Positions 12,421 to 41,550 of a DNA stretch of 41,550 nt are shown one piece after another. Position numbers and translations under genes: made by a program. The notes under the pieces are model-generated. The model did not search any database, was not told the origin of the DNA, and saw only the letters and a program-made list of their open reading frames with translations. The stretch is from assembly GCA_017502435.1 (NCBI GenBank), contig JAFVUZ010000021.1, positions 1 to 41,550 on the forward strand. Reading direction: 5' to 3'. Position 1 is the first letter of the stretch. Each line of letters begins with the position of its first letter. The DNA comes from Lentisphaeria bacterium (GTDB lineage Bacteria; Verrucomicrobiota; Lentisphaeria; Victivallales; Victivallaceae).

Positions 12421-12432
12421 AAATTTATTGTA

Positions 12433-12515
12433 ACACAGGGGTGCTGTTGTCGCGGTGACAACGGCTGAGATCAAACCCTTTGAACCTGAAACGGGTAATG
12501 CCGGCGTAGGAAGAA
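12433..12515 (+). promoter_or_regulatory. TPP riboswitch (THI element)
   Basis: The conserved parts of the thiamine-pyrophosphate aptamer appear in order: GGGGTGCT, a P3 stem TTGTCGCGGTGACAA, GGCTGAGA, AAACCC, TTGAACCTGAAACGGGTAAT and GCCGGCGTAGGAAG. It precedes thi4-thiE-thiD-thiC, the expected regulon. Binding of thiamine pyrophosphate normally lowers expression of such operons. About 100 bases separate the aptamer from the thi4 start. Confidence 0.97.
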
Positions 12516-12548
12516 AAATGAAAAATATTTTTATTACACTTTTTATTT

Positions 12549-14055: not shown

Positions 14056-14878
14056 TTTTCTGCCCGCAGTTCTGACCATTGCCGGAAGCGATTCCGGCGG
14101 CGGGGCGGGGATTCAGACGGATTTGCGGACTTTTAATGCTTTTAAAGTTTACGGCTGTTCGGCAATAACTGCTGTTACATCTCAAAATCCTTTTGAAGTA
14201 CGCAGAATTGATATTCTGCCGATTGAATCTGTAAAAAATCAGATTGAAAGCGTGCTGGATGTTTTTCCTGTGCGTTTCGCCAAAACAGGAATGCTCGGCG
14301 ACGGAAAAACTGTTGAATGTGTTGCCATGATTGCGGAAAAATATGATTTAAATTTAATCGTTGACCCCGTAATGGTTTCAACTTCAGGAACGAAACTGCT
14401 TGAGGATTCTGCAATTTCGGCACTGCAGGAAAAATTTTTCCCTCTGGCACAATGGCTCACTCCCAATATCCCCGAAGCGGAACTGCTGCTGAATTGCAAA
14501 CTGACAACTTCCGATGACCTGAAAGAAGCGGCAATGCAGCTTTACAACAAATACAAATGCAATGTGCTTTTGAAAAGCGGTCACGCCATTCATGCCGATA
14601 AAGTGACAGATATTGTCTGTTTTGAGGGAGAACTTTATGAATTGAGTTCACCTGTTGTTGAAATTCACGGCAATACCGCTCACGGAACAGGCTGTACTTT
14701 GAGTGCGGCAATAGCGGCAAATTTTGCTTCAGGAAAAAATTGGCAGCAATCGCTGACGGAGGCAAAAGCATTTGTTTACGGCTCGCTTGCAGAAAACAGA
14801 ATGTTGAATGATAACCTTTCGCAAATGTATCCGCCCGTCAAAAATTATTCAAATTTGATAACATGGGAAAAATTATGA
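14048..14878 (+). CDS. thiD: Hydroxymethylpyrimidine (phosphate) kinase (ThiD)
   Basis: ThiD phosphorylates HMP and HMP-phosphate to the pyrophosphate used by ThiE. The 276-residue ribokinase-fold protein has TIAGSDSGGGAGIQTDLRTF near the N-terminus, VTSQN, KTGML, VDPVMVSTSG, LTPNIPEAELLL, LLKSGHA and the anion-hole/catalytic segment NTAHGTGCTLSAAIAA. AAAGGAG lies upstream of the ATG inside the end of thiE. Confidence 0.96.
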   Translation: MNNFLPAVLTIAGSDSGGGAGIQTDLRTFNAFKVYGCSAITAVTSQNPFEVRRIDILPIESVKNQIESVLDVFPVRFAKTGMLGDGKTVECVAMIAEKYDLNLIVDPVMVSTSGTKLLEDSAISALQEKFFPLAQWLTPNIPEAELLLNCKLTTSDDLKEAAMQLYNKYKCNVLLKSGHAIHADKVTDIVCFEGELYELSSPVVEIHGNTAHGTGCTLSAAIAANFASGKNWQQSLTEAKAFVYGSLAENRMLNDNLSQMYPPVKNYSNLITWEKL

Positions 14879-16170
14879 CACAGATAGAATATGCTCAAAA
14901 AGGGATAATCACCCCGCAAATCAAACATGTCGCCGAAATTGAACAGCGTCCGATTGAGTTCATTGCTGACAGAGTCGCTTCAGGAACTGTTGTTATTCCT
15001 GCAAATATCAATCACAAAAATCTCGTTCCGTGCGGTATCGGCAGAGAACTTAAAACCAAAATCAATGCCAATATCGGTAATTCCACGCTTTCCAGTTGTC
15101 CGGGAGCAGAACAGAGCAAACTCAATATCGCTCTGCATTACGGAGCAGATACAATAATGGATTTAAGTACCGGAGGTGAAATAACATCCATTCGTCAGAC
15201 CATGCTTGCAAATTGTACCGTTCCGCTCGGTACTGTGCCGATTTATGAAATCGTTGCACGTTACGGCAATAATGATTTTGCCAAAGACAAAATACTTGCC
15301 GTAATCCGTGAACAGGCGGAGCAGGGCGTGGATTATATGACCATTCATGCAGGACTTTTGCAAAAATATGTTCCGCTGGCTCTCAAACGTAAACTCGGCA
15401 TTGTCAGCAGAGGCGGTGCATTACTTGCTGCATGGATGCAGGAAAACGGAAAAGAAAATCCGTTTTATGAAGCATTCGATGAAATTCTGGAAATATGCAA
15501 AAAATATGATGTTACTCTTTCTCTCGGTGACGGTTTGCGTCCCGGTTGTCTTGCGGATGCTTCCGATGAGGCACAATTTGCTGAACTTGACACATTGGGC
15601 GAACTTGTTTGCCGCTGCCGTGCCGCCAAAGTTCAATCCATGGTGGAGGGTCCGGGACATGTGCCCCTGGATCAGATTCAGGAAAATATGGAACGTGAAC
15701 GTAAAATCTGCGGAGATGCTCCATTTTATATTCTCGGACCTGTTGTTATTGACTGTGCACCCGGATATGACCATTTTGTTGCGGGCATGGGCGGCATGAT
15801 GGGGGCGTATTACGGAGCGGCTATGCTTTGTTATGTTACTCCGAAAGAGCATCTGGGATTGCCCAATGCCGATGATGTACGGCGTGGAGTTGTTGCTTTT
15901 AAAATTGCAGCCCATGCGGCGGATGTCGCACTGCATAAACCGGGCAGCCGCAAGCGTGACGATGCGATTTCCGATGCCAGAGCAAAATTTGACTGGGAGA
16001 AACAGTTTGAACTGGCACTTGATCCTGAGTGGGCAAGAGAACTGCGTTCACAGGCATTGAATGAAAGTTCAGCTCCCAATCAGCACGGTTCAGAATATTG
16101 CACCATGTGCGGACCGGATTTCTGTTCGGTCAGATTGAGTGCCAGATTGAAAAAAAGTATTTTAAGATAA
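14875..16170 (+). CDS. thiC: Phosphomethylpyrimidine synthase (ThiC)
   Basis: ThiC is a radical-SAM enzyme that rearranges aminoimidazole ribotide into the HMP-phosphate moiety of thiamine. The 431-residue protein is the short form common in anaerobes. It carries VIPANINHKN, KINANIGNS, MDLSTGGEI, SMVEGPGHVPLDQI, and the C-terminal cluster motif CTMCGPDFC (CxxCxxxxC) that binds the 4Fe-4S centre. The ATG at 14875 overlaps the thiD stop as ATGA and has GGGA upstream. An in-frame ATG 12 bases earlier is possible but has no clear ribosome site. Confidence 0.96.
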   Translation: MTQIEYAQKGIITPQIKHVAEIEQRPIEFIADRVASGTVVIPANINHKNLVPCGIGRELKTKINANIGNSTLSSCPGAEQSKLNIALHYGADTIMDLSTGGEITSIRQTMLANCTVPLGTVPIYEIVARYGNNDFAKDKILAVIREQAEQGVDYMTIHAGLLQKYVPLALKRKLGIVSRGGALLAAWMQENGKENPFYEAFDEILEICKKYDVTLSLGDGLRPGCLADASDEAQFAELDTLGELVCRCRAAKVQSMVEGPGHVPLDQIQENMERERKICGDAPFYILGPVVIDCAPGYDHFVAGMGGMMGAYYGAAMLCYVTPKEHLGLPNADDVRRGVVAFKIAAHAADVALHKPGSRKRDDAISDARAKFDWEKQFELALDPEWARELRSQALNESSAPNQHGSEYCTMCGPDFCSVRLSARLKKSILR

Positions 16171-16232
16171 ATATTTTCGTTCTGTTCCTGTTATATTTTG
16201 CAAAGGCAAAGTCCGGCGGACTTCGCCGCATT

Positions 16233-16322
16233 GGGGTATTGCCGCTTTTTTGCGTAAGTAAAAAAGCTATACCCCAAACTCTTCAATTTTTTTTATTATC
16301 AGTCAATATTCAGTACAGAGCC
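16233..16322 (-). repeat. Modular repeat copy R2, also a likely terminator after thiC
   Basis: The minus-strand core (about 16276-16322) is shared with R1 and R3-R5. Beside it is the family's GGGGTAT/ATACCCC stem (16233-16239 with 16269-16275). Inside that stem an extra GCTTTTTT/AAAAAAGC pairing is unique to this copy. On the plus strand the stem is followed by a T-rich run, so it can end thiC transcription. Confidence 0.75.
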
Positions 16323-16414: not shown

Positions 16415-16482
16415 CCATGAAACGAAGCCTTTTCAGGCTTCATGTTTTTTGCCTTTGAAAAAAAGGCAAAAAAAATGGTGGA
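16415..16482 (+). repeat. ~65-bp direct repeat, left copy (DR-A) flanking the R-M island
   Basis: The order is CCATGAAACGAAGCC, a short loop, GGCTTCATG, a T-run, GCCTT, then AAGGC followed by eight A and TGGT. The same order occurs in the same orientation at 20906-20972 on the other side of the R-M genes. The last part, AAGGC-A8-TGGT, recurs directly at the 3' end of tRNA-Pro (21169-21185). Confidence 0.7.
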
Positions 16483-20905: not shown

Positions 20906-20972
20906 CCATGAAACGAAGCCTGACGGCTTCATGTTTTTTTGCCTTGGAATCAAGGCAAAAAAAATAGTCGGG
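20906..20972 (+). repeat. ~65-bp direct repeat, right copy (DR-B) flanking the R-M island
   Basis: It matches DR-A (16415-16482) through both stem-loops and the AAGGC-A8-T tail. The final bases TAGTCGGG(A)AAAGAGGATT resemble the tRNA-Pro 3' part TGGTCGGGGTGAGAGGATT. From 20973 to 21168 there is no gene, only short palindromes such as GCGT/ACGC (around 21006-21018) and CATTCCGACATAG-type arms (around 21070). Confidence 0.7.
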
Positions 20973-32446: not shown

Positions 32447-32725
32447 GGCTCTGTACTAAACATTGACTGATAATAAAAAAAAATTGAGGGGGTTCGGGGG
32501 GGCGTTCCACCCGCTTTTATATGCGGGAGGACGAAACGAACATTTCGCCGAAAAACAGCCTGACGCTCCCAGCCGCTAACACTCTCGCGCCAGCGTAATA
32601 TCGCACCGGGTCGTACCCGGCGCCGGGGATCCGTCTTCGCTAAAGCTACGCCGTGATAAGGCAATCGGCGTCACGCGTCAGCGTAATAGAAAGGCGGGTG
32701 GAACGCCGGGGCGGCGTAAGCCCCC
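32447..32725 (+). repeat. Modular repeat copy R3: core plus ~207-bp cassette
   Basis: The core (32447-32500) is followed directly by a cassette with inverted ends: GGCGTTCCACCCGCT at 32501-32515 and GGCGGGTGGAACGCC at 32693-32707 (14 of 15 complementary). The inside is nearly the same as in R4, including a GGGTCGTACCCGGCGCCGGGG block and the CTTCGCTAAAGCTACGCCG motif. It ends with GGGGCGGCGTAAGCCCC. No gene is seen in 32343-32754. Confidence 0.8.
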
Positions 32726-32754
32726 TTGTAATAAATATAACCTGTAACGGGAAG

Positions 32755-35936: not shown

Positions 35937-36293
35937 GGCTCTGTACTAAACATTGACTGATAATTAAAAAAAATTGAGGGGGGTTCGGGGGTATAGTGAG
36001 TTGCGACAGCAACGAACGGCATACCCCTGATGTGGCTAATCCGGCGAAAGATTTGTTTCGTCATTCCGCAGCGTTCCACCCGCTTTTATATGCGGGAGGA
36101 CGAAACGAACATTTCGCCGAAAAACAGCCTGACGCTCCCAGCCGCTGGCACTCACGCGCCAGCGTTTCATCGCACCGGGTCGTACCCGGCGCCGGGGTTC
36201 CGTCTTCGCTAAAGCTACGCCGTGACAAGGCAATCGGCGTCACGCGTCAGCGTAATAGAAAGGCGGGTGGAACGCCGGGCGGCGTAAGCCCCT
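35937..36293 (+). repeat. Modular repeat copy R4: core, stem-loop modules and ~206-bp cassette
   Basis: This is the fullest copy. Core 35937-35991 is followed by a GGGGTAT/ATACCCC stem (35988-36027) enclosing GTTGC-GACA-GCAAC, then a long hairpin 36043-36118, and the cassette with ends GCGTTCCACCCGC (36071-36083) and GGCGGGTGGAACGCC (36262-36276). It closes with GGGCGGCGTAAGCCC. It lies between the convergent rsmA and marR genes. No gene is seen in 35690-36406 apart from the orphan promoter. Confidence 0.85.
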
Positions 36294-36406
36294 GCAAAAA
36301 AGCACAAAATAAGTTATCTCCCCATATTGGGAATATAGCATTTCAAAAAGGTTTTTTCCCCACAAAACAGTTTTGCAACAGCCCCTTGATTTTTATTATT
36401 CAGAAA

Positions 36407-41380: not shown

Positions 41381-41550
41381 AGGCTCTGTAATAAACATTG
41401 ACTGATAATAAAAAAAAATTGAGGGGGTTCGGGGGTATAGTGAGTTGCGACAGCAACGAACGGCATACCCCTGATGTGGCTAATCCGGCGGAAGATTTGA
41501 TTGCTCATTCCCTAAAAAAAGGGGAGGAGCAATCGAACATTCCGCCGAAA
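41381..41550 (+). repeat. Modular repeat copy R5 (runs off right edge)
   Basis: Core 41381-41435 is followed by a GGGGTAT/ATACCCC stem (41432-41471) and a hairpin 41487-41546. The hairpin has the same plan as in R4 but different arm sequences that remain complementary. The cassette with GGCGTTCC ends is not reached before the window stops. The gap 41221-41380 holds a candidate promoter (TTGAAA-N16-TATTTT near 41290-41315, minus strand) and no gene. Confidence 0.85.

Follow-up and report, generated by a model that had tools for sequence, protein, structure and literature searches.

What kind of element is the hairpin at 36042-36119 (+ strand) of a 41,550-nucleotide contig of a gut Lentisphaeria bacterium (GenBank assembly GCA_017502435.1, contig JAFVUZ010000021.1; hereafter the window), and does its fold matter? 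The question goes back to a sequence-only reading of the window, in which two repeat copies, R4 and R5, were seen to differ in their hairpin arms by complementary changes. In R4, the arms GGCGAAA (36043-36049), TTTCGTC (36056-36062), GACGAAA (36099-36105) and TTTCGCC (36112-36118) lie exactly where they had been placed, the R5 hairpin runs from GGCGGAA (41487-41493) to TTCCGCC (41540-41546), and all four base pairs that differ between the two copies are compensated. The stretch GATTTG/CGAACA, which had been described as an internal loop, is mostly paired (G-C, U.G, U-A and U-A), and only its G.A and A.C positions are unpaired. The two copies also differ apically, the apical segment of R4 being 16 nt longer. 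The core of R4 (35984-36124) folds at −66.6 kcal/mol in comparison to a mean of −38.6 kcal/mol for shuffled sequences (z = −7.4).

R4 and R5 are two copies of a dispersed non-coding repeat which is present in dozens of copies in gut Lentisphaeria. In the source genome (G000), a MAG of 2.86 Mb in 266 contigs, 40 places were scored by BLAST with the 201 bases around R4 as query, a covariance model of the two main core hairpins (P1 and P2) gave about 100 matches (129 at E ≤ 0.01, antisense included), and 63 complete P2 hairpins were read. The repeat is ~300-400 bp long (305-424 bp measured between the ends). Many contigs of this genome end inside repeat copies, and the assembly is in part fragmented because contigs break there. 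Within the window we found five copies. R1 (99-173, − strand) has kept an A-type 5′ end, as defined below, and the first few core bases only, with other modules replacing P1 and P2. R2 (16175-16322, − strand) is short and divergent, with an A-type end, P1 (GGGGTAT..ATACCCC) and a short P2 (GGCGAAGTCCGCCGGACTTTGCC), and matches the model at E = 0.005. R3 (32447-32735, + strand) has an A-type end and is devoid of P1 and the left arm of P2, while the right arm and the tail are retained. R5 (41382-41550, + strand), which carries an A-type end, P1 and P2 in a second haplotype, is cut by the contig end. Two further kinds of elements were seen in the window, namely a separate dispersed repeat of 44 bp (GGCTTCATGTTTTTTGCC..) at 16436-16479 and 20925-20968, and a TPP riboswitch detected by Rfam scan at 12427-12529, upstream of several consecutive + strand genes, one of which is a ThiC gene (14863-16170).

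The core, best followed in R4 (all features on the + strand), consists of P1, a linker, P2 and a tail with the small hairpins P3 and P4. The 5′ terminal inverted repeat of the A-type shell (GGCTCTGTACTAAACATTGACTGAT) occupies 35937-35961. P1 (35985-36030) is formed by GGGGUAU..AUACCCC with an inner GUUGC/GCAAC stem and is defined by folding and covariation. P2, the hairpin of the initial observation, has a long stem that is interrupted by G.A and A.C mismatches and, close to the apex, contains a conserved U.G wobble. Its apical segment (36071-36091), nearly repeated in inverted form at 36255-36275, is present in some copies only, others having a plain A-rich loop. In the tail, P3 (36175-36189, CCGGG/CCCGG), which has alternative paired versions in the related genome G078, is followed by a module at 36196-36280 (CCGTCTTCGC..GGGTGGAACGCC) that copy comparison reveals as optional, and by P4 (36277-36291, GGGCGGCGTAAGCCC), which is shortened in R4. 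Optional modules are inserted at two sites, the P2 apex and the tail. The copy ends with a B-type shell (36301-36350), so that R4 (locus L031) is an A5/B3 copy of 406 bp. Behind it, at 36345-36384, lies another dispersed repeat ending in ..GTTTTGCAACAGCCCC, which is also found behind other B-type copies.

What the sequence-only reading overlooked is that this hairpin forms part of a larger mobile repeat, which has terminal inverted repeats and is flanked by target duplications of 8 bp. Most copies in the genus of the window (G000 and G001) sit between 25-bp terminal inverted repeats, GGCTSTGTACTRAAC..ACTGAT, and the 25-mer end occurs with up to two mismatches at 173 places in the source genome versus none for the reversed control. 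Direct target duplications of 8 bp flank intact A-A copies, and 8-bp duplications were read at L020, L029, L039, L059, L101, L164 and L211, for example TATTTTTT at L020 and AATCCTTA at L029. A second shell, type B, carries the same core, and A-A, B-B and A-B copies were all found. Target duplications are absent from the chimeric copies, among them R4. Such chimeras and some of the long-range mosaics may be assembly joins, as the MAGs are apparently fragmented at these repeats; the arms of P2 lie within ~80 nt and are thus much less exposed to this artefact. With terminal inverted repeats, target duplication and a short, non-coding, multicopy body, the repeat has features of a miniature inverted-repeat transposable element (MITE). 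In the genomes G011 and G096, we also observed hairpin-rich repeats of ~275-345 bp (L040, L043, L092, L094, L098 and L100) with the same terminal inverted repeats and unrelated interiors, many of them with 8-bp duplications.

Further copies, the collection of which had been proposed as a check, show that R4 and R5 are not the only ones and that eight further genomes carry variants. We aligned 136 complete P2 hairpins from nine genomes, 61 of them distinct, without gaps and applied a home-made, R-scape-like covariation test (not R-scape itself), in which substitutions are re-simulated on a FastTree tree of the same columns. Seven column pairs were significant at E < 0.05 among the 61 distinct hairpins and all seven are helix pairs, in comparison to none of 1512 non-pairs; the ten top-scoring column pairs among all 1540 are likewise helix pairs. 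The proposed signature of a conserved fold is strongly supported by many more copies, eight further genomes and the seven significant helix pairs. In a 43-copy model alignment from the nine genomes, which was fitted to the structure and so leans towards it, 97.3% of the pair cells are paired versus 44-57% if the partner is slid by 1-3 columns, and two-sided changes occur at 30 of 40 pairs versus 10-14 after sliding. Both hairpins contribute: over the same 43 copies, helix 1 and helix 2 of P1 are paired in 97.9% and 97.5%, respectively, with two-sided changes in 11 of the 15 pairs.

In G078, the share of positions that differ between copies is 42% in the middle 7 pairs of P2, 18-19% in the linkers and 2% in the lower stem. 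The middle 7-8 bp exist there in eleven versions; nearly all are perfectly paired, and the 25 copies contain a single wobble and a single mismatch. In the source genome, every scored pair is Watson-Crick or G.T in 54 of the 63 complete hairpins. The initial statement that no change is unpaired holds for R4 and R5 but not for all copies. Uncompensated arm changes, which had been named as evidence against the fold, do exist elsewhere, but most are confined to a single copy or to a few and pairing is kept overall; a G.A at one middle P2 pair is common to 11 of 16 copies in G002. Across the nine genomes, compensatory changes preserve the core fold, and wobbles and mismatches are conserved along with it. 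Since pairing is maintained despite sequence change, the fold as such is of importance, and the repeat is not just mobile junk DNA of the ordinary kind.

The distribution of the core was followed with two covariance models. The first, built on P1 and P2 of ten copies from two genomes, gave clear multicopy matches in G002, G078, G088, G076, G035 and others, in which the best E-values ranged from 1e-16 to 1e-7. The second, built on nine genomes, was run on 137 genomes of the order and detected the core in 18, which belong to four genera of a single family and mostly carry many copies; two related genomes are Lentisphaeria MAGs from sheep colon. Common to copies across species are P1, the linker (TGCGGCAACC and similar), the apical P2 motif TTCCGC-RAAAA-GCGGGA or a close variant, and the tail hairpins, while the outer flanks of G002, G076 and G078 differ from the A-type shell, the 25-bp ends of which were not seen there in the same form. 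In these three genomes (L136, L137 and L143 in G002; L156-L159 in G076; L144-L152 in G078), short like sequences of about ACGACCTNTCAACGG, CGCTTGCAGACTGC and CCCACGGGC lie on both sides of the core, and may mark other shells or insertion sites. In G026 (L112, L121 and L130), P2-like hairpins were observed near reading frames with a pseudopilin-like start (LIELLVVIAIIAIL). The repeat was not found in plasmid and phage collections, viral contigs had no match to the end pattern, and we found no paper on such repeats in Lentisphaerae.

The two identities first suggested for the hairpin did not hold. HEARO/omega RNA is not indicated, as its Rfam model was unmatched, and Rfam searches of the window at the gathering threshold, of the R4 region at E ≤ 10 and of ten loci from the nine genomes at E ≤ 0.1 returned no match to the repeat; the permissive searches gave only weak sub-gathering hits, mostly microRNA hairpins. 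A REP-like element moved by single-strand transposition was the other suggestion. REP/RAYT and IS200/IS605-type single-strand transposition need a Y1 (HUH) transposase. The Y1 domain (PF01797) is present in G035 and G076 and absent from seven of the nine carrier genomes (G000, the source genome; G001, G002, G078, G088, G091 and G065), and we reject this enzyme as the general partner. Integron attC sites, the folds of which are conserved while their sequences vary, were set aside as well, since ordinary genes flank the copies and conservation extends to P1 and the tail. No match to ISL3 (PF01610), IS6/IS240 (PF13610) or IS1595 (PF12762) transposases was obtained in the source genome, and the IS256 hits (PF00872) are without the ends of the repeat; none of these four families was thus found with these ends, in genomes that are incomplete MAGs breaking at repeats. 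At unpaired ends in G001, G035 and G096, where an autonomous element was sought, only ordinary genes or decayed copies were seen.

The copies tend to lie between genes that meet tail to tail. Among the 40 copies for which both neighbours are known, the flanking genes converge in 22 cases, are co-directional in 16 and diverge in 2; the corresponding counts for the 28 background gaps (100 bp or longer, from the window and the G001 contigs) are 5, 16 and 7. As the ORF calls are crude, the convergent enrichment (Fisher p = 0.003) is to be read as a trend and not as a census. R4 itself lies between an RrnaAD gene and a MarR gene that converge, and no intrinsic terminator was seen there. Between co-directional genes of the source genome, the orientation of the element shows no preference (5 versus 3), which argues against a strictly strand-dependent role within one mRNA.

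The repeat is a structured, modular and mobile intergenic element, the core fold of which is conserved over one bacterial family. We hypothesize, and consider this account somewhat more probable than not, that it is a MITE-like mobile element with a core fold that is selected as a + strand single-stranded structure with a transcript-end role. Its insertion would be due to a cut-and-paste type transposase acting in trans, which we infer because of the inverted repeats and the 8-bp target duplications. The + strand RNA would be produced by read-through from adjoining gene ends, and the hairpins could act as a transcript-end structure that blocks exonucleases and damps read-through between convergent genes. 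Such a role, the least certain part of the proposal, would make insertions tolerable at gene ends and keep the fold in spreading copies.

That the covariation of R4 and R5 is a chance difference between two repeat haplotypes could have been argued from these two copies alone, which differ at four pairs only, and from the mixed haplotypes in the source genome (L012, L020 and L025). However, the same pairing with many more variants in eight further genomes and the covariation tests refute this reading, to which we give practically no credence; the pattern is real, general and far beyond chance. It could also be maintained without any selection, if hairpin-templated repair or template switching during replication copied one arm onto the other. 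The middle 7-8 bp of P2 in G078, with its eleven mostly paired versions in an otherwise almost invariant stem, would fit such a process. Yet the same process should also repair imperfect pairs, and these are kept: seven genomes have the U.G wobble next to the P2 apex in every copy, G000 has it in 59 of 63 copies and G001 in 1 of 9, and in G078 it is fixed despite the hypervariable middle 7 bp; the G.A and A.G mismatches of the stem are fixed within the genus of the window, and G.A, A.C and A.G mismatches persist in all or nearly all copies of several genomes. A palindrome-repairing process should have removed them, and selection on a single-stranded structure of the + strand is therefore favoured, which makes a purely mutational origin very unlikely. 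The excess of G.T over A.C cells among the distinct hairpins (115 versus 37, 24 of these A.C at one mismatch position) points the same way, resting mainly on a few fixed pairs. We infer that selection maintains a + strand single-stranded structure, most simply an RNA.

The fold could be needed for mobility itself, if a transposase, a reverse transcriptase or a site-specific recombinase recognises the folded single strand of DNA or RNA; only copies with an intact fold would then spread, and private mismatches would be post-insertion decay. Compensation of the haplotype differences that are shared, the private nature of most uncompensated ones, and the occurrence of the core in different shells and between other flanks in other species are consistent with this, but the inverted repeats and 8-bp duplications already explain mobility in the genus of the window, the repeats of G011 and G096 have the same ends around unrelated interiors, and the Y1 transposase is missing from most carriers. 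We regard it as possible, although rather improbable. More speculative and a little more doubtful still is a new kind of mobile structured RNA, with a two-hairpin core, several transposon shells and a 7-bp paired segment that diversifies within genomes, in which the machinery of mobility or maintenance would recognise the folded strand. Conservation of the two-hairpin architecture in 18 genomes of one family, the likeness of apical motif and linker across species and the lack of any matching Rfam family would also suit a non-coding RNA family in its own right, with a trans-acting or protein-binding role, which transposon ends captured and amplified. For such RNAs, however, a mosaic structure and tens of copies per genome are unusual, and the promoter-like sites found are weak consensus matches only, so that we consider this origin unlikely. 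The MITE-like element with a fold selected at transcript ends remains the reading that we prefer.

With MITEs the repeat shares small size, lack of coding capacity, high copy number, terminal inverted repeats, target duplication (here 8 bp) and intergenic location. Unlike in MITEs, compensatory changes between species preserve the interior fold, there is more than one type of shell, and no partner transposase was found. The interiors of MITEs are commonly regarded as filler between the ends; here, an interior of this type keeps its fold over species, occurs in several transposon shells and lies mostly at gene ends. The repeat is thus a natural system for asking whether structured repeats are selected for their effects on transcripts or for how they move.

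MITE transcripts are known to form stable stem-loops (PMC10969869). BOX, RUP and SPRITE of Streptococcus pneumoniae are likewise small structured repeats of modular build, which are found nested within each other, and SPRITE is enriched at the 3′ ends of convergent genes (PMC3049150, PMC10969869), a placement like that of the present repeat. Compared by description, our repeat differs from them by its phylum, by two hairpins with a hypervariable paired segment and by the lack of a terminator signature at R4. Correia elements of Neisseria and ERIC of enterobacteria are structured mobile intergenic repeats that alter the fate of mRNA via RNase III or RNase E; their reported RNase sites lie in the inverted-repeat ends (PMC10969869), whereas the conserved fold described here is internal and independent of the ends. 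With REP/BIME and RAYT it has in common imperfect hairpins near gene ends in many copies, but most carriers lack the Y1 transposase and the two-hairpin core of ~120 nt contrasts with the short REP. Acido-Lenti-1 RNA (RF01687), reported from Lentisphaerae (PMC2864571), and HEARO/omega RNA are, like our repeat, structured RNA candidates; the present repeat matched no Rfam family in the above searches and, with a working covariance model, is a candidate for a new RNA family in a phylum with few described RNAs.
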